From positions 1-64,000 of the forward strand of contig NHNY01000036.1 of the NCBI GenBank assembly GCA_002786065.1: a DNA stretch of 64,000 nucleotides. The letters run 5' to 3'. Position 1 is the stretch's first letter; each line of letters starts with the position of its first letter. Below are positions 1-12,420 of the stretch, piece by piece. Made by a program: the position numbers and the translations under genes. The notes beneath the pieces are model-generated. The model had not been told where the DNA came from. It ran no database searches and was given only the letters and a program-made list of their open reading frames with translations. Source of the stretch: Microcyclospora pomicola (taxonomy: Eukaryota; Ascomycota; Dothideomycetes; Capnodiales).

Positions 1-212
1 GCAATATTAATAAATAAACAAAATCAAAAGTAAGCGATTTAAGAACCAGTTTTAAAGCGTGATAATAGGGATATCACTAGCGTAGATCTAGCGTGATTCT
101 CAACATATGTAAGCTTTTATTCTTAGATTGCTTCTCCTCTTCCCTCTCCTTCCCTCTCTCTCTGATTTCTGACCTCCTCTACCATTCCTTATCAGCTATT
201 AATCCCTCTACA

Positions 213-741
213 ATGCCGCCTCTTACACCTGCATCTACTGCATTGTCTTCTAGCAATGGTATGTAATTTATGCCTTCTTTTAACACACCGATCTTCTAAC
301 TAACGAAAAAAATTAGCTATCATACGTAAAGGGCGCACGAAACTTGTAGCAAAACGCAGTGTCAAGTTCCCTTTAAAACGACCTCGTATGGGACAGCAGT
401 CTCAGTCACGAAAAAAGCGAAGACTTAAGCCTGGCACTGCTGCATTACGCGCTATTCGACAGATCCAGAAAACGACCGTTCTATGTATACCGCGCCTTCC
501 CTTTTCGCGTCTTGTACGTGAGATAATGTCAGATATATCATCAGAGGGTCAGCTTCGCATTCAAGGCTCTGCGTTAGGAGCCTTACAGGAAGCTGCGGAG
601 GCATTTCTTATAACAGAGTTCGAGATGTCCTTACTCGCGACCCTCCACGCAAAACGCGTCACGATGGCAGTTAAGGACATGCGCCTGATCCGGATGCTCC
701 GACATAGGATGAATGGCGACCCATACTACGAGCTAGACTAG
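213..741 (+). CDS. CENP-A-like histone H3 variant (two exons, 156 aa)
   Basis: Exons are 213-258 and 317-741; the intron is GTATGT...TTAG and the joined frame is open for 157 codons. The product is a histone-fold protein of the H3 class. After a basic tail of about 50 residues (rich in K/R, with no ARTKQT or KSTGGK motif) come an alphaN-like segment (KPGTAALRAIRQIQK), [18 protein letters not shown] and HAKRVT. Between REI and LRIQ there are nine residues where canonical H3 has seven. This two-residue longer loop 1 is a known hallmark of centromeric H3 (CENP-A). The C-terminal tail is also unusual and ends in acidic and aromatic residues. The gene is intact although it lies near decayed transposons. 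It could be the centromeric H3 or a diverged paralogue. A canonical CENP-A elsewhere in the genome would decide. Confidence 0.8.
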
Positions 742-1321
742 TGTAAGCTCCTTTTATTCACATGTATATATTACCTAATTGCTAACATTCTTTTCTAGCT
801 TTACTTTGAGATCGTCTCTATTACTAGTGCCAATCACTGCCAATCACACCTTCCACATGTACTGTTCCTTGCTATCTACAGAAATTCATTTTCGCGTAAC
901 CTAACGACTTTGTGTAGCCCCTTATGAGCTAAAAATCACTCTTTACTGCCAATCACTGCCAATCACACCTAGTATGTATACGAAATTTTTATACCCGCTA
1001 TAAGCAAAAGAACTAAATTTCTCCTTCTAGAAAGTTGTAAAACGATTATTAGTACGTCCTTTCGAGCTCTTGTTGTCGATATAGTGCTCTTAAGCTAACT
1101 ATCCTCTCCCTAGAGCTTTTCAGATTTTTCGGTTTATTTTCAAGTTACCCAAAAGCGACAAGTGTCTACAACAGCCTTATTTCGCGCGCTATGCGCTCAC
1201 ACTGCCAGATGTCGCGGGATTCAGCGTCATACACTGCCAATCACAAAGCCAATCACTCTCAGCGGTTTTGGAAAAAACATCCCAGGCTTCACTTCAGGCA
1301 TGTGACGGTTCGCTTACCTGA

Positions 1322-1379
1322 CCAATCAGAGGTCGCCACGTGATTACCCCGCCCCAGCCACCCAATTTTTATGACGTCA
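1322..1379 (+). promoter_or_regulatory. Promoter motif cluster of the second H3 variant gene
   Basis: A single CCAATCA (1323-1329), a CACGTG E-box (1337-1342) and a perfect CRE palindrome TGACGTCA (1372-1379) lie within 60 bp, about 230 bp upstream of the start codon. These match known bHLH and bZIP target words. Their function here is inferred from position only. Confidence 0.45.
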
Positions 1380-1604
1380 CCGCCTCAACGTTCCACCAGT
1401 CATCACCTTCACTTTGACAAACCCCTGCACATCCTTTTGACAAGCTGCCCTACATTGCTGCCAATCACTGCCAATCACACCTGCTGCCCCGCTGTCGTTC
1501 CTCGCATCGCCAGACACTGCGAAACCCATCAAAACTCGTCCGCCATCTACATACCTGCCAATCACTTGCCAATCACAATCCTGGGTACCTCACACTCCCA
1601 CACA

Positions 1605-2283
1605 ATGGCCGACGCCAATCCACCACCCGCGACCACCCAGCAAGACGGCGAGACCCCTTCGACGCGCATCCGGGTCGACGCATCACCCATCAAGCGTACT
1701 GCAGTCAGGAGACAGACAGGCTTCAAATCTACAGGCGGAAAGGGTCCAAGAAAGACTCTCGCTCCAAAAAAGTCTAAGACAGTCCGTAAGAGGCTCACAC
1801 AAGGTCGTGACTGGGTGCCTTTCAACAAGATCCCTGGAAAGTACAGGAAGAACAAGCATGGACAGAAGAAAGCTATCAGGCCAGAGCGTGAGTAATAGTG
1901 ATTGGCATAGTGATTGGCACTTACTAACTTGTGTTTAGTCTCTCAAATCAAAGAGATTCGCCACTTTCAGAAGAGTGTCTCACTTCTCATCCCGAGAACG
2001 CCTTTTGCTCGTCTCGTCCGTGAGATTGGCCTGGGTTACAAGTTCGATCTCAGGTTCCAGGCTAGCGCGCTTGAGTGTCTTCAGGAGGCTGCAGAGGCGT
2101 TCTTGGTTCGAGTCTTCGAGAGTAAGTCGTCTGTTTAGCTTCTAGTTCTTTTACTTAGCTAATCCCCTGTTTCTAGTGACGAACCTGCTTGCTATTCACT
2201 CGAAGCGTGTCACTATCCAGCAGAAAGACATGCAGCTACTTAAGCTTCTTATGGAGAGCCCTGTAAGGATGGACGGCAATTGA
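1605..2283 (+). CDS. Divergent histone H3 variant with extended N-terminus (three exons, 190 aa)
   Basis: Exons are 1605-1887, 1939-2121 and 2177-2283; reading phases join to 191 codons. An N-terminal extension of about 30 residues precedes an H3-type tail: [20 protein letters not shown] resembles the canonical QTARKSTGGKAPRKQLAT. The Lys9, Ser10, Lys14 and Lys18 equivalents are kept, but position 4 is Arg and position 8 is Phe. The Lys27/Lys36 region is replaced by a basic, aromatic linker unlike H3. The histone fold follows ([42 protein letters not shown]), with the normal seven-residue loop 1, so it is H3-like rather than CENP-A-like. The C-terminus ends MDGN instead of RIRGERA. An in-frame ATG at 1371 would add 78 residues made partly from the CCAAT repeats; I prefer 1605. 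Intron 1 contains two of the CCAAT-type words. Confidence 0.82.
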
Positions 2284-2642
2284 GGCTAGACTAGGCTAGG
2301 CTGTTTGCTTAGTTAGGCTCCTAGTAGCAAGGTTGGCTACTAAACAACAATGATACCCATATAGTAGCGTAGATAGCTACTAAAAACCGATGATACCCAC
2401 TATATCGTAATGCCTTGTGTCTTATAAACTATCTCCTACACGTGATATAAGCAGCACTGTGATTGGCACTGTGATTGGCACTGTGATTGGCATTCGAAAT
2501 AGCGTTAGTATAAACGTTTCATACTAGTATGTAAGATTAGCGTCTAACCTTCCTTTTAGAGCTAGCGTAGCTTCTAACGCTCTAACGGTCATTCCCCAAT
2601 TTCTATTAGGGTAACTTCCCCAATTAAACCCAAATTCAGGAC

Positions 2643-3315: not shown

Positions 3316-6300
3316 ACTTTATACACCCTTAAGATAAGTAATAACCGAAGCATTCGTAGGACTCCCGCTCCTAGCGAAGCAGGAAGCTCGTAGCGCTACC
3401 GACTAACGACTACCTCGTCCGATGTGACTATAACCGATGCCCCCGACATAGGTAACGCCCTTAAGTCACTCGTCGCTAAACCCGACCTCTACTATAGAGA
3501 CCGCGACAAGCTTAAAGACTTTATTAACTAGATGTCGATGTACTTTAGGTTCAACCGTGTAGACGAACAGCAGCAATCCCTATTCGCTACTACGTTCCTC
3601 CGTAGAAGGGCCTAACACTTTGTTAAGCCCTACTTAACTCAACACCTTGTAGGTGACGACGACGACTAGGATGTAGTCCAAATGTTCTTAATATTCGCCG
3701 GTTTTAAAGACAAGATGCGAACCGTATTCGGCATTAGCAACGAACAGGCTAATGCTATGCGAATAATCTAAGTCCTAACTTAGAAGACTTTAGCCGCCGA
3801 CTATACTGCTAAGTTCTAGAAGTATAGACAGATTACTAGATAGGACGACGATGCCCTAATTGTAATGTATAAGAGAGGACTAAAAGATTCGGTAAAAGAC
3901 GAACTTATGCGTATCCCTATATAACCTAGCACGTTAATAGGAATGATCGAGCGTACGATCACCCTTAACGACAGACTGTACAAAAGAAGCATAGAGAGAG
4001 GACGTAGACTAAGAGGATCTAGTGTGATAAGGACCCCTTATTTTAATAAGAACGCTAGACGTTCTAACTACAGCCACTATAGTGATCTAATAGACCTTAG
4101 TGCTACTACTCCGATTCGACGCAAAGGCGCTAGACCTAAGAAAGGGTTTAAGAGCAACAACGCAGGAAAACTAACTTACTACACCTATAGTAAAGAAGGC
4201 TATATAGTAAGGGACTATCGCTCGAAGGGGCAATAGGGGAATGTACAACCCTAATAGTTCAATACTATTGTACGAAAGGTGCAATTCAACGCTATAATTC
4301 CTATAATTAAGGAAGAAAGCGATAAGGAACAGTAACAGGAACAACCTTACTATAGTAGCTAAGTCTAGGCCGTCTACAAGAAAGACGACTACTAGGAGCA
4401 CTATAAGATAAAGGTATTGTTCGAAATATTCCTAAACGAGACGAACCAACAGGAGGTTCGCGACAACGTACTAGACTTCATCGAAAGCCTCTAGGATGAA
4501 CTAACTAAGCTTTTAGAGCTACTAAGAGAAGGACTGACTAACGAGATCTAAAACGATATTACCTCGTGCAGCTATTTAATTACTAGGAACTGGCACGTTA
4601 TCGATACTATTAACGACCTTAGAATAAATAAGCTAGTTACCTTCGCTACCGCGACGGTACTCCACAAAGACGACAACGCTTTTATTAGCTATAATAATAG
4701 GGCCTTTACAGATAAAGAAGTACTAGAAAGTAATAACGAGGACGACTTAGATAAGTACGAGAGTAACGAAGAAAGTGATAGAGACAACGGATTCCTAACA
4801 TTCCGTATCTACACCGCTACTAAAATTAAGAAACTCGTCTTACTTATAGCTAAATCCGCTAATCAGATCATGCTAATCGTAGGAGGAAGGAGATTCCTTA
4901 ACCTATAGAAGTTCGACTAAATGTTATTCGACTTTAGGAGGAAGGTTTAGAGCATGCAACAAGTGCTAACAATCCTAAACTTCAAAGCCTTTATCTAGGA
5001 ATTCCTACTAATCGGTAGTACCTTCTAACAAGACAGAAGTTACGAAGTAAACGGATTCAGGGTTACTAAGGAAATAAGAGCCGCTACTACTAGACTTAAG
5101 GAAGTATATAAGCTTATAGAAGAAGACTAACAAAAAGCTAAGTAAGCTAGTTAAACATCGTTCGAAGAAGCATGTAAGTAGGACCTTGCTCGCGAAGCTT
5201 ACTATCGAAGAACAGGACAATTTATTTCGCTACTACTATTACCCTACTAGGGAAAAGGGAAAGCTCCTACTTAAGAAGTTATAGTAGAGAGCTTAACAAC
5301 ATAAAAACTTTAAAGTTAGTAGTTTTTTGTACAACAGTTACTGTATAAGGACGTACTACTACAGCTATAATAGACTCTAGCGCGGGTAGAAACTTCGTTT
5401 CTAGTAGTTTTGTGAAACGTTAAAGGATCGCTACTAATAACAAAGGAAACGCAGGATACCTAGTAATCGCTATAGACAGCTTATTACTACCTAGCGTAAG
5501 TAAGGAGACAGTACTCTTACGAATGATCGTTTAGAAGTACTAGGAGGAAATTATATTCGACGTTATCGATATAGCTAATTATAACATCGTACTTAGTATA
5601 CCTTAGCTGAAACGACACAATCCGACTATTCTATAGACGTTAGGAATAATCAGATTTAAGCAGTACGGTTACGTGAACCGCGCTTACCCTGCGCAGCGAT
5701 AGAGTACGCTAGTAGATAAGATAAGGGAGTTCAATACAGTAGAAGACTAGAACCTACAGTCGCAACGATAGACTAACAAAATAGATCCATAACTATAATA
5801 GGCACGACAGTAGGATAACATCGACAAGCGATAGGATAGACTACAGGACAACGCCGGCTAACAGAATGTTAGTGTAGTAAAGGAGAATTACGAACCTTCT
5901 AGAATCCCTAGAGAGTACTAACAATTTAAGCAGCTCTTTTAGGAAGAGGAATCGTTAAAGACGTTACCTAAGCACTAGCCGTAGGATCACAAAATACTAC
6001 TTGAACTAGAGAAGTAACCTACGTATAGTCTACTCTATACTTGTTCTACGAAAGAGCTTTACACTATCAAAGAGTATCTAGACAAGTACCTAGCACGAGG
6101 ATGGATCGGGAAATCGACATCCCCTATAGGATACCCTACAATGTTCGTTCTAAAGAAAAACAGGAAATTACGAATAGTTATCGACTACCGAAAACTCAAC
6201 GAGATCACGATTAAGAACAGATATCTACTGCTAAATATAGAAGAACTACAGACATAGTTCTCTAGAGCAAAATAGTATATAGCTATCGACCTATAGGAAG

Positions 6301-9292
6301 CCTACTATCTTGTACGTATAGCCGAGGGAGAAGAATAGAAGACAGCGTTCAAAACACGCTACAGACTCTACGAATACCTTGTTATGCCTTTCGGATTGAC
6401 TAACGCGCTAGCGTTAATATAGGAACTTATTAACGATACACTTAGAGAGTACCTCGACGTGTTTGTAGTTGCGTATCTTAACGACATTATAGTCTACACT
6501 AATAGCATACTCGAACAACATAAGGAACATATTAAGAAAGTATTTGTAAAGCTCGCTTCTCGGAACCTTAAAGTTAGCATCGACAAATGTGAATTCCATA
6601 AAAAGGAAGTTAAATTCCTTAGATTCATTGTCGGAATAAACGGCATTAAACTAGACCCGGATAAGATCAAGTCTATTAAAGAATGGCCTACGCCTAGCAA
6701 CGTTAAGGAAATACAATCGTTCCTAGGACTAGCCAATTACAATCGGAAATTCATTAAAGACTACTCGAAGATCGCGACACTACTTACCGAACTTACCTAA
6801 AAGGACAAGCCTTTTAAATAGGAAGTATAGTAAGAATTAGCATTTAAAGTACTAAAGAAAGCCTGTACAGAACAACCTGTGCTACGGATGTTTAACATAA
6901 TAAAGCTAGTTTAACTCGAAACCGATGTATTAGACATAGCTATAGGCGCCTATCTTACACAGACAACTAATAGTAAACGACACCTAATAGCATACTTCTT
7001 AAAGAAGATGTTACTAGCGGAACAGAACTACGATATCTACGACAAGGAACTTCTTGCGATTGTCGTAGCCTTACAACACTAGAGGATTTATGCCGAAGGA
7101 GCTCTATAGCTTACGATCTACTCCGATTATAAGAACCTACTATACTTTACAACTACTAAGGTCTTAAATCGAAGGCAGACACGTTAGTCGGAACTCTTAG
7201 GACAGTACAAGTTCACTATCTAGTACATACTAGGTAAGGACAATAGCAGAGCGGACGCACTTAGCCGAAGGAGTAACTATATAAGTTAAAAAGAAAACAT
7301 AGAACAACAGATTCTTTAGATAAACGCTAACAGAAGTCTTAGTAGCTACGCTTAGGAATTCAACACGATTCTGCGTATAGCATAAGACACTAAAGAACAG
7401 TTCCTAATATCGAAAGGAAAATATAAGATTACATCTCTAGACAAGATACTAGAATGTATCTAACGACATTACACAGATCCCTTATAAGGACACCCTAGTG
7501 TTGCTCGAACTATTAAAAGAATATAACGACACTTCACAATTAAACATATGCAGAAACATGTGGAGAAATATATTAAGAAATGTATAGAATGTTAATAAGA
7601 CAAATCTTCGCGCCACGCAAAGTACGGAGATATATAGTTCAGACCACTACTAACAGAACTATAGTCGGAAGTCACAATAGACTTCATCGTTAAGCTACTA
7701 AAATCTAAGGATAGAACTTTTAGAGTAACCTACGACTCGATACTAGTTATCGTCGACAGACTAACGAAGTACTCTTACTTTATTCCTTGTTAAGAATCGA
7801 TGAATGCAGTGTAGTTCGTATTCCTTGTTATCGACAGACTAGTGCGATTATATAGAATACCTCGCGTAATCATTACTAACTAAGGAACGCTCTTCACTTC
7901 GAATTATTAGAAGACGTTAACAACACAACTCGGAATACGTTACAAACTGTCTACCGCATTTTATCCTACGATAGATAGACAAACAGAAAGGATAAATCAG
8001 AGTCTAGAAACGTATATGCGACACTACGTTAACTACAATTAAGACAATTAGGTGAGCTTACTACCTCTAGTACAGCTTACGCTTAACGACAGTGTGTCTA
8101 AAACAACCAAATTCTTACTATTCTACGCGAACTATAGAAAGTCACTAAACAACTTTATAACTAGGTTCGACAGACTATTAGCAGCTTAGGCTGTTACAAC
8201 GGTCGAACAACTAAAAGATGTGTTTATAACAGCACAACAGAACATTATCAAATTACAACAGGTAATAACATCCCAAATAGAGAAGAAGAACAAAAATACA
8301 CCTTAGCTTAAAAAGGGGGATAAAGTATACCTTCTTACAAAAAACTTTAAGACAAAGAGACCTTTAAAGAAACTTAACGTAGTTAAAGTCGGTCTATTTT
8401 TGATCAAAGAAGTACGAGGACCTGTTAACTACCTCCTCGACCTACCCAAAGATACAGGACGCATCCACCCTATGTTCTATATATCCTTACTTAAACTAGC
8501 AGACCTAGAAACGCTATTGCAAACGACCTTCTATTACTAGACTAACACAGACGAATACATTATCGAGAAAATCCTAAAGAAACAAGGACAGTAATACCTA
8601 GTCAAATAGAAAGGATATCTAGATTCAGAAAATACCTAGGAACTAAAGGAAAATCTCACGAACTGCTAGAACCTTCTGCGCTAGTTCTACCGAAACTACT
8701 AGGAATAGGCATCTACTAGTTAGAATCCTTAGCGTCTTCCTATATACCTATAGGATACGCAGTCCTAGTCGACATCTTAGGAGGGAAATCCAACAACGCC
8801 GTAGCCTCGGCTAACTCTTGCTGTTAGATAGACGCCTCCTCGAAGGCTAACGCGTTGTTCACACGACCGTTTAGGAATTCTAGTTGCTGCTGCAACCGAC
8901 GCTCTTTTACATACGCCGATACAGCCTTCTTATAAGCAAGCAATACTACTTAGCTCGCCTCTTAAGCTGCTATCCGCGCGTCTTCGATTTGCTTATCTAA
9001 TTTCCTCTTCTCGGAACTTAGAGATTACTACTCTGCTATAGTAATTATAATGTCGTAATCCTTACTATTACGACGATTACATTCACTACAGAGGCCCGAC
9101 TAAATGTGCATACAATATATAGTCTTGTTTGCCTTGTAGTAAGAACATTTCGTTAGCATATCGGTTCCGAAGGTGTTAATTAGATTAGCCCTGTCTAGTC
9201 GTCGTTGCGTACTCGTGCGTGCCGGTACCTTTAGTATAGTTAGTCGAAGGATGATAGTTTATAAGGGCATAAACACTAAAGGAGGGGCTAGT

Positions 9293-9611: not shown

Positions 9612-12420
9612 GTGACAGGGACGAGTATCGCAAAGAGTATTAGTCTAACCGCATTACGCTAATCTTTGTGTACGTTCCGATCCTTTGATCGGAAGTTGTT
9701 ACCTTTGTTAACAAGGTCTAGAATAGCTATAAGATTAGAAAGCAAGCAAATCGTAGCTACTGCGTACCTAGCAATCCGGAGATGCTTTATAAGCATCCGT
9801 AAGTGTTAGGCGGCGAGTAGTGTAGTATCCCTATAGATCTAGGCTATCCAGTTCTACTGCAGCTAAAAACGCAGATTAATAAGTTTAGTAGGTATTCACT
9901 CTGTAGCTACTCGCGCACACACACATATAGGTAGCTAATACGGATATAGATATGTAGGAATATCTCCTAGCGGAGACCCTCGAGTTCTGCTAGCGAGTGC
10001 TGTAAAGTGCTAGGTATCTAGCGGTAATTAATAGCGGTAACTATAATAAACGAGGACGCCTACACGCGTCTACGTACCTCACCCTTCGTAACGCGATTAC
10101 TAACTATATTGTTAGTTAAGCAATACTAGTACTCGCCGAGTCGGAGAAGCTATATACAGCACATCGGAGCTAGTCGGATGTAGCTTAAATAGCGGTGTAA
10201 AAGCTAGTAAGAACCTCGGTTATTACTACGAGTGTAGACGAGTTTAGAGGCATATAAATGCTGCTATAGCCTACTGTATCTATATAGGTACTACTAGTTA
10301 CTACACGAGACTCTACGGCACTCGTAATGACGCTCTAGCTTGATCCGTGTATTCGAGATAGTCGCAATTACTAGTACCGTTACCCTAACGATCTATTCTG
10401 CCCCTAATATAGTCTTCCGAACAGCGATCTAAGCCGGCTAGCGAGTGCTTAGCGAGTAATCCACGATCTAACTTTAAGCCTAATACTAGCTGCTTCTAAG
10501 CCTTCTACGCTAGTAGTAAGCAGTCTAATCGATAGAGCGGCGCACCACTCGTACAGTAATCTATATGTTAATTATGCGGAAGCTTATCGCTAGCTAGGCT
10601 TCAAAAAGGTGTAGCTACTAGCAGTAAATGCCGCATTACGACCTCTGTCGTAACGCGCTATATCTATTGCACTTAAAGACACTCGCAGCGCTACTCGTCT
10701 ACAACTAGCGCCTGTCCGTCTAGCTGCTATTAAGGTAAAAACGAATATATCTATCTACACGTAGACCGTTACTATTAAGCAGCAGAAGCGTACAGTGCTA
10801 CTGTAGCACTACTACTAGTACGAGTTAGTCTACGAGTGTATAGACGGCTTTACAGACTACTTCCTTATTAACACTCTTAAAGGCTAGCTAGTAGTTAACT
10901 AGTTGCTGCTACGCGTTGCTAACGATCAATTGCAAGATCCTTTTAACTATCTAAACTATCGCAACCACTACTTTATTAGTAGCTAGATAGAGGATACTAA
11001 CGCTCCGAAAAGGCTCTTATATAAGGATAGACCCGTAGATAATCTACTCGCAGTGTTAATCCCCTTTCGTAAGGGTAGTACTCGTACCTACGATATTAAG
11101 ATATTATTCGAGCTTAACAGTCTAAAAGCAGTTAAAGCAAAAAAGGCAGTACGCGAGCGTGCTACGAGTACTAAAAGTCTGCCGTCGCTCGAACTGCCTA
11201 CGCGTCTAAGCACTCGCAATAGCGTAGCAATAGCAAGCATTGAACCTATATGTCTAATTATTAAGCAAGAGATTAAGAAGGAGCCTCAAAGAGCACACTC
11301 GCTAGTTACTCGCACTACGGATATCGACACAGTAGATCTTACTAGATCTCCTTCGCGTCCGGACCCTCCACCCCTTCGACGCGAGCTTAAGGATCTACTT
11401 AACAAGTATAAGAGATTAATTGTACGCTACGCACTCGTAGACGCGAGAGCTAGGGCAGCAGCAATAAAAGCGCTAGCGCGTATAGACCGCGAGTGTACGG
11501 AGGTTCCTATAGAGGGTGTCGATAAATCAGACTCTCTACTATTAAACCCTCTATAATTAGACCCTCTGCAATAAGACCCTCTGTAATAAGACCTTCTATA
11601 GCAACCTCCGTAGTAACCTCGAAAGCGTCGTCGTTCGATTGTAGCTTCTAATAGAGTTACGAGACGAAGCAACAAAGTAACGTAGCTACGTACTAACACA
11701 CTCGCAGCTATAGTAAGCCTATACTCGTACCTTTAACAGGCGCAGAACTGCTAGAACGCGTACTTTAATACACTCGTAGCTATAATAAGCCTACACTCGA
11801 AGCTTTAACAGACGTAAAACCAGTGCTAGAACGCGTATAAGTGCTGTTGCTGTTGCTGTTGCTAACGAGGTTTAATAGTAAGATTACAGAGGGAAGATTA
11901 GGGACTAAGAACACATACTCGTAGTACACTCGTATATTAAAAAATTAATCTATGTCTATCTCTTCCTCACCCTCCCCTAATAACGGCGACTCTAATAGAA
12001 ACTCTAAGCTCTTTACAAAACTGTCTAGTAGTTTGCTTAATCTCGCTACCTCCCCCTCTTAAAACTCTACTCGCTACTTAAGCGTAGGTGCACTCGCTAC
12101 TACTATAGTGTAGCTAGACTTCGCCTTAACCTTGCAGAACGCGTAAGCCTTATCCTCCTTGTCGGCGAAGACCTTATACTACACTGTATTGCCTAGGCGA
12201 GTGTACTACGAGCACGCTTTAGCAGTATCCTTTCCCTTACTAGTCTCTATAATGCGGCTAGCCGCATTATACTTACGGAGGTTGTTTAGAGCGGCTTTCT
12301 TACTACTCGCGTTATTACTTGTACTAGCGGCGACCTATTTATCCTACGTCTCTTACTTATAGTACTAAAAATCTGCGGCGTTAGTAGTAGTAGGGCAGTA
12401 GAAGGCGGTAGTTGCTGCTA
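9612..12420 (+). mobile_element. Unidentified, heavily decayed repeat sequence (host of the LTR insertion)
   Basis: This stretch continues the sequence left of the LTR element (about 2700-2995) and has the same extreme dinucleotide pattern: CpA and TpG scarce, TpA and CpG common, the mark of CpA-directed RIP. It reads as degraded coding sequence on the plus strand. The longest open piece is 11053-11556 (167 codons, rich in K, R and short acidic blocks). I recognise no family. A transposon-derived protein is the likeliest origin. It is broken many times. Confidence 0.6.

Follow-up and report, generated by a model that had tools for sequence, protein, structure and literature searches.

Histone H3-like genes have been found inside hAT transposons in two other groups of fungi. 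Manning et al. 2013 (PMC3538342) described, in the text available to us, a ~5.6-kb hAT in Pyrenophora tritici-repentis that carries a transposase, a central ORF and one H3-like gene, H3L, which its authors suggested has perhaps drifted. Dhillon et al. 2019 (PMC6710886) reported, again in the available text, that P. fijiensis has hATs of 9.5–9.9 kb holding one or two H3-like genes and that five more Mycosphaerellaceae have related elements, the elements being RIP-inactivated and their carriers falling in Pseudocercospora, Cercospora and Sphaerulina. No third report of an H3-carrying hAT could be recognised by title in a search outside which most subscription papers lie, and none is described in the available portions of PMC4994206, PMC8616336 or PMC12543289. 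An H3-carrying hAT as such is already known; what is new in the element described here, from Microcyclospora pomicola, is that it carries two clearly different H3s, both of them intact and intron-bearing.

As far as the available descriptions go, the element resembles both published cases. Like the Pyrenophora hAT (PMC3538342), it is bounded by inverted ends that enclose a transposase, an uncharacterised ORF and an H3-like gene, it is present in many near-identical, little-mutated copies, and insertions in the tail of the H3-like protein can be listed as a further likeness. Compared by description, the Pyrenophora element is ~5.6 kb long with one H3L and also has a 2.3-kb recombinant form, whereas the present element is 8.26 kb with two H3s; moreover, ESTs were reported for the Pyrenophora element, whereas this one was read from genomic DNA. 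With the P. fijiensis hAT (PMC6710886) it shares its large size, 8-bp target duplications, ~20-bp inverted ends, the frequent presence of two H3-like genes of different length and the AT-rich, RIPped blocks. In contrast, the H3 copies of PMC6710886 are described as RIP-inactivated and intron-less, which was read as a sign of a captured transcript, whereas by the same comparison of descriptions both genes here are intact with introns. The second H3 copy of P. fijiensis was published with a 16-aa insertion, which may represent a retained intron, H3-B having a 55-bp intron within its fold. Those elements were also described as being without a recognisable dimerisation domain, whereas Dimer_Tnp_hAT is present here.

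The window, by which we mean the whole 64,000-nucleotide stretch that was analysed, begins inside one copy of this element. Window base 1 is also base 1 of its contig (C30), and comparison with the copy on contig C14 places the right third of the element (element bases 5497–8259, + strand) at positions 1–2763 of the window, the remainder of the copy lying beyond the contig break. The full element can be read on C14 from 426729 to 434987, a length of 8,259 bp, and carries four genes: the transposase, a gene we call X, and the two histone genes, H3-A and H3-B. Its right terminal inverted repeat (2743–2763, − strand) is 21 bp long and agrees with the left one at 19/21 bp, as expected of the short inverted ends of a hAT. 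It is followed at 2764–2771 by an 8-bp target site duplication, ACAATAGC, and the same 8 bp precede a left end on contig C10, which we assigned to the window's copy by this duplication. The H3-A/H3-B pair is, with near certainty, the cargo of this hAT transposon, and the element belongs with hATs that hold at least one H3-like gene between their ends.

The transposase lies on the minus strand and was modelled as five pieces, one of which matches zf-BED (E 1.3e-5) and another Dimer_Tnp_hAT (E 1.3e-12), giving the BED finger and dimerisation domain typical of hAT; the other three of the five pieces have no Pfam family match. Genome-wide there are seven Dimer_Tnp_hAT matches, all within copies of the element. 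The transposase of the C14 copy, the sole one readable end to end, contains one in-frame stop; the copy on C37 has a sense codon at this position, but is RIPped elsewhere. Gene X (L021:5557-7011, minus strand, between the transposase and H3-A) encodes 359 aa with acidic stretches. It matches no Pfam family, and no homologue was found at E ≤0.001 among the best 7,999 word-sharing protein candidates scored.

The non-coding parts of the element are marked by an element-specific 10-bp motif, TGCCAATCAC, which occurs 37 times in the whole element, both orientations counted. None of the 37 copies overlaps a modelled exon, though exons make up 4,814 of the 8,259 bp. In the window, 14 copies (TGCCAATCAC or GTGATTGGCA) lie between 828 and 2492, either between genes or within the first intron of H3-B. 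Tandem TGCCAATCAC doublets spaced 10–12 bp run throughout the element but are confined to its introns and intergenic DNA, and genome-wide there are 100 such doublets compared to 0 for the reversed pattern, all 100 falling by position within element copies. The motif may serve as a binding site for the transposase or for the CCAAT-box complex.

A search of the 23.4-Mb, 58-contig genome with PF00125 gave 29 matches: 11 to H3-A, 11 to exon 2 of H3-B, and seven to other histone-fold genes. The H3-A and H3-B matches always occur together, in line with the first-pass annotation of this DNA, which had treated the pair as a unit of genes of different type. Window positions 1–2500 are repeated at 11 places with 100% identity, with one additional 90-bp match on C37. 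The 11 right ends give ten distinct flanks (C14 and C3 have one in common), and left ends were found at eight places, the other seven search rows being short inverted matches inside those places. Six of the eight left ends carry 8 bp that match a right flank exactly, as expected of hAT target duplications: the pairs are C47–C3, shared with C14 (GGGCCGGT), C36–C46 (GCCCTACT), C22–C42 (GCTACGAT), C6–C47 (ATCTAGTA), C10–C30, the window's own (ACAATAGC), and C14–C2 (CTTCTAGC). The remaining two are near matches, C9–C4 being offset by one base and C37–C12 having one mismatch, and the right flanks on C7 and C56 have no partner among the eight left ends. There are thus at least ten insertions: ten if both near pairs are true, and more if not. 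The sequence of the C36–C46 insertion site recurs in a decayed gag-like stretch of the window (3623–3637), so that this copy would have landed in the same retroelement family.

At ten of the 11 places, all but C14, one fixed distance separates the H3 pair from a contig end, and we had suspected a subtelomeric cassette. This was rejected on two grounds: leftward of the pair, C14 can be read on into the transposon, and the contigs end where the assembly broke inside the repeat. Indeed, the contig ends begin at identical element bases (window base 1 and, on the left side, element base 850), which indicates that the repeat was collapsed in assembly. The 100% identity may therefore reflect one consensus placed on many ends, and is no proof that each copy is intact. 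Independent support for the insertions comes from the distinct flanks and their matching duplications, and none comes from identity among the copies.

The element copies sit in DNA decayed by RIP. In the nearest kilobase, the composite index is positive (0.40 to 2.18) in 10/10 right flanks and in all four left flanks measured of the eight; these 14 flanks come from ten insertions, so that a left and a right flank of the same insertion do not count as independent observations. For comparison within the window, 1/51 one-kb tiles of positions 12001–63000 has a positive index. For the element on C14 the composite RIP index is −0.05, and the first-pass annotation was right that the histone pair stands beside RIP-decayed DNA, here the right neighbour, and is itself free of RIP. 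The contrast between the 14/14 flanks and these tiles is what would be expected if H3-A, as a CENP-A-like protein, or a transposase complex with it, steered insertion into safe centromeric or heterochromatic DNA; however, survivorship, through the loss of insertions into genes, yields the same picture. RIP has also acted on the hAT family at least once, since the C37 copy is heavily RIPped: its alignment with the C14 copy shows 259 substitutions over 5,592 columns, C>T and G>A changes accounting for 243 of them, and in 231 of these 243 the context is CpA. The final ~14 bases of the C12 copy are likewise RIP-like. The clean copies fit recent amplification, with C37 as an older, RIPped copy, and the three DNA_methylase loci in the genome make a RIP apparatus possible. 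The C37 copy is also interrupted at C37:95270-102468 by an insert of ~7.2 kb that starts with TGTAAGG, ends with CCTTACA and lies between AAGGG repeats, as would an LTR retrotransposon judged by its ends.

Both histone genes lie on the + strand of the window, with splice sites that we predicted by eye from the DNA. H3-A (213–741; exons 213–258 and 317–741) encodes 156 aa and matches Pfam Histone PF00125 with an E of 5.2e-26; H3-B (1605–2283; exons 1605–1887, 1939–2121 and 2177–2283) encodes 190 aa and matches with an E of 2.2e-30. Each also matches solved H3 chains, and together these matches exclude chance. The description of the locus as two intact, intron-bearing, divergent H3-class genes in the same direction is therefore upheld, as is their spacing (given as 860 bp, measured as 863 bp) and the lack of an H4 neighbour, no further histone match having been found within the stretch. 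Neither gene is a canonical H3, again as first proposed: over the histone fold, H3-A is identical to S. pombe H3 at 51/92 positions and H3-B at 53/92.

The same annotation called H3-A CENP-A-like, and this holds in part. As in CENP-A/CenH3, loop 1 is longer, by two residues compared to H3, and the H3-type tail is missing, hence also any K9 context. However, H3-A has I where CENP-A has W in loop 1, and so lacks the longer loop with W that marks a CATD; over the fold it is closer to H3 than to the host CENP-A (46/97), and it falls in a separate clade. An AlphaFold2 model of 140 of its 156 residues (mean pLDDT 70.7, pTM 0.43) has four helices in the H3 order, at 40–51, 59–74, 83–110 and 118–131 of the modelled piece. 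The 50 PDB matches listed for this model have E values from 3.5e-6 to 1.2e-5 and modest TM-scores of ~0.4 by query length, and their titles are mostly nucleosome or H3 complexes; one is an H3.1 CATD mutant and none is titled CENP-A. While the longer loop 1 would suit a histone that guides insertion towards centromeric DNA, the overall proximity to H3 and the absence of CENP-A among these titles argue against it, and we consider such targeting improbable.

To find where H3-A belongs, we used a tree of 32 proteins, hand-picked from 238 fetched and some of them chosen for likeness to H3-A; the protein searches behind it took the best 120 of 1,155 and the best 120 of 6,370. H3-A is joined first by P0147 and P0149 (98/90) and next by P0150 (96/89), all three of them environmental proteins, and it is identical over the fold to P0147 at 63/102 and to P0149 at 59/97 positions. 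This clade falls weakly on the CENP-A side, at 59/88, and outside both CENP-A and H3 once H3-B is omitted. An earlier tree had grouped P0222, from Pseudogymnoascus, with H3-A (92/66), a placement that the present tree does not repeat. The odd residues of H3-A, FLITEFE or FLVNEFE and KDM, are shared by P0147, P0149 and P0150, and the contigs that encode these proteins (1,195, 2,344 and 6,882 bp) may carry related elements. A viral carrier of the lineage was also sought; viral contigs gave 61 pattern matches, none of which was confirmed. A copy of the host CENP-A was ruled out as the source of H3-A by the tree and by the 46/97 identity. In this tree H3-A belongs to an environmental H3-variant lineage, which may derive from either CENP-A or H3.

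H3-B, in contrast to H3-A, has an H3 tail motif. It keeps K9, S10–K14 and P16–K18, while K4 is replaced by R and R8 by F. The motif is embedded: 30-odd residues lie N-terminal to it, and the fold is preceded by a basic insert. In the tree H3-B sits on a very long branch, weakly with H3 (59/88). Both proteins have the H3 histone fold with its conserved contacts, retaining the H3–H3 contacts H113, R116 and D123 and the DNA contacts R83, K115 and T118; R63 is lost in both, each having P at 63, and each has R at 64 and M at 106. We also considered whether the two are sister duplicates. This was not recovered, and a tree constrained to unite them is worse by 16.2 log-likelihood units (AU p 0.077, not rejected); the two have R64 and M106 in common, as well as RM(N/D)G at the C-terminus, which keeps the idea alive as far as shared residues can.

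The host's own histones bear on the view taken by the first-pass annotation, that the pair represents a chromatin module specific to the host lineage or else a duplicate of the centromere histone. Searching the genome for H3, CENP-A and H4 genes, a check proposed there, was only partly fruitful. A host CENP-A gene is present at C34:521 kb; its partner in the tree is the CENP-A of Elasticomyces (97/79), and over the fold it agrees with CENP-A of Elasticomyces elasticus at 84/98 positions. This similarity would place the host in the Dothideomycetes, to which Elasticomyces belongs; a 5.8S rRNA search gave no match. The sole H4 match in the assembly lies at C55:472 kb and is a divergent one, at 72% and 66% in the two pieces that match, and no canonical H3 gene was found in the assembly with PF00125 and a further search. 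Fourteen proteasome-subunit loci are expected, and 14 are present by our own grouping of 25 matches. The likeliest explanation for the missing canonical H3 is that the stretch is lacking from the assembly, yet the absence is odd. This absence, and the adjacency of two different intact H3 variants, could be cited for a host module. However, both genes lie inside, and move with, one multicopy transposon, recognised by its inverted ends, its target duplications and the transposase that it encodes. The host CENP-A is encoded elsewhere, has a different position in the tree and is not the protein to which H3-A is most closely related. We consequently regard the host-module view, in either form, as very improbable. 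Nor are the two genes recent neutral copies of host histone genes, a possibility the annotation had set against its own proposal.

We hypothesize instead that the histones are kept since they help the element. H3-A and H3-B would most likely enter chromatin with host H4, because H113, R116, D123, R83, K115 and T118 are kept, although R63 is lost. The two variants would be unable to bear the host silencing mark, H3K9 methylation, because the H3 tail is missing from H3-A and the R8 that DIM-5 needs is missing from H3-B; the K9 neighbourhood of H3-B is predicted from its residues to be unusable by this enzyme. The genes of the element could then stay expressed within heterochromatin. The requirement for R8 comes from Neurospora H3 tail mutants, in which, according to the available text of PMC3248561, DIM-5 needs H3 R8 to methylate K9. 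These mutants resemble H3-B in the presence of an extra H3, the altered K9 neighbourhood and the proposed mode of action, but they are engineered point changes of canonical H3, whereas H3-B is a transposon gene.

Several observations argue for retention. Both frames are open, over 156 codons in H3-A and 190 in H3-B, despite divergence from H3 at ~45% of fold residues; H3-A groups with three environmental proteins; and H3-bearing hATs recur in the two published fungal groups, as far as those reports are available. The combination of a kept K9, S10–K14 and P16–K18 with F for R8 and R for K4 in H3-B, and the location of the copies in RIP-decayed DNA, would point more narrowly to anti-silencing. 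That the cargo is maintained by selection, for an element benefit of any kind, seems to us somewhat probable. For the hypothesis as a whole, with its core that the histones help the element, we judge the balance to be even, and anti-silencing, while the likeliest single job for these proteins, is put forward tentatively.

The main rival explanation is that H3-type genes were captured long ago by the hAT through transduplication and have since drifted as passengers without a function for the element, which we regard as a serious possibility that falls short of being probable. Both published cases were read in this way in the available text (PMC3538342, PMC6710886), a burst amplifies anything between the element's ends, and the very long branch of H3-B is what drift would give. 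Against this reading stand two separate H3 genes that are open, with plausible introns, at such fold divergence, the retention of H113, K115, R116, T118 and D123 in both, and the recurrence of the H3-A lineage, with its shared unusual residues, in at least three environmental proteins. Other observations count against a benefit, and against anti-silencing in particular. The tail motif of H3-B is internal, and the C14 transposase has its in-frame stop. The published H3L has, in its authors' view, perhaps drifted, and all published Mycosphaerellaceae copies are described as RIP-dead. Finally, a single R8A copy beside wild-type H3 caused little or no loss of methylation in one assay of PMC3248561, the discussion in the available text calling the effect semi-dominant; the ten or more copies of the element could raise the dose of H3-B.

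The published H3-carrying hATs have been read as gene capture and, in one group, as RIP-dead relics, according to the text available. An element with intact, different histones, one of which has a tail altered at the very residue on which the silencing enzyme depends, makes the question of why fungal transposons carry H3 directly testable. If the anti-silencing hypothesis is true, histones would be added to the counter-defences of transposons, and the recurrent H3 genes in fungal hATs would represent a counter-defence function rather than accidental captures.
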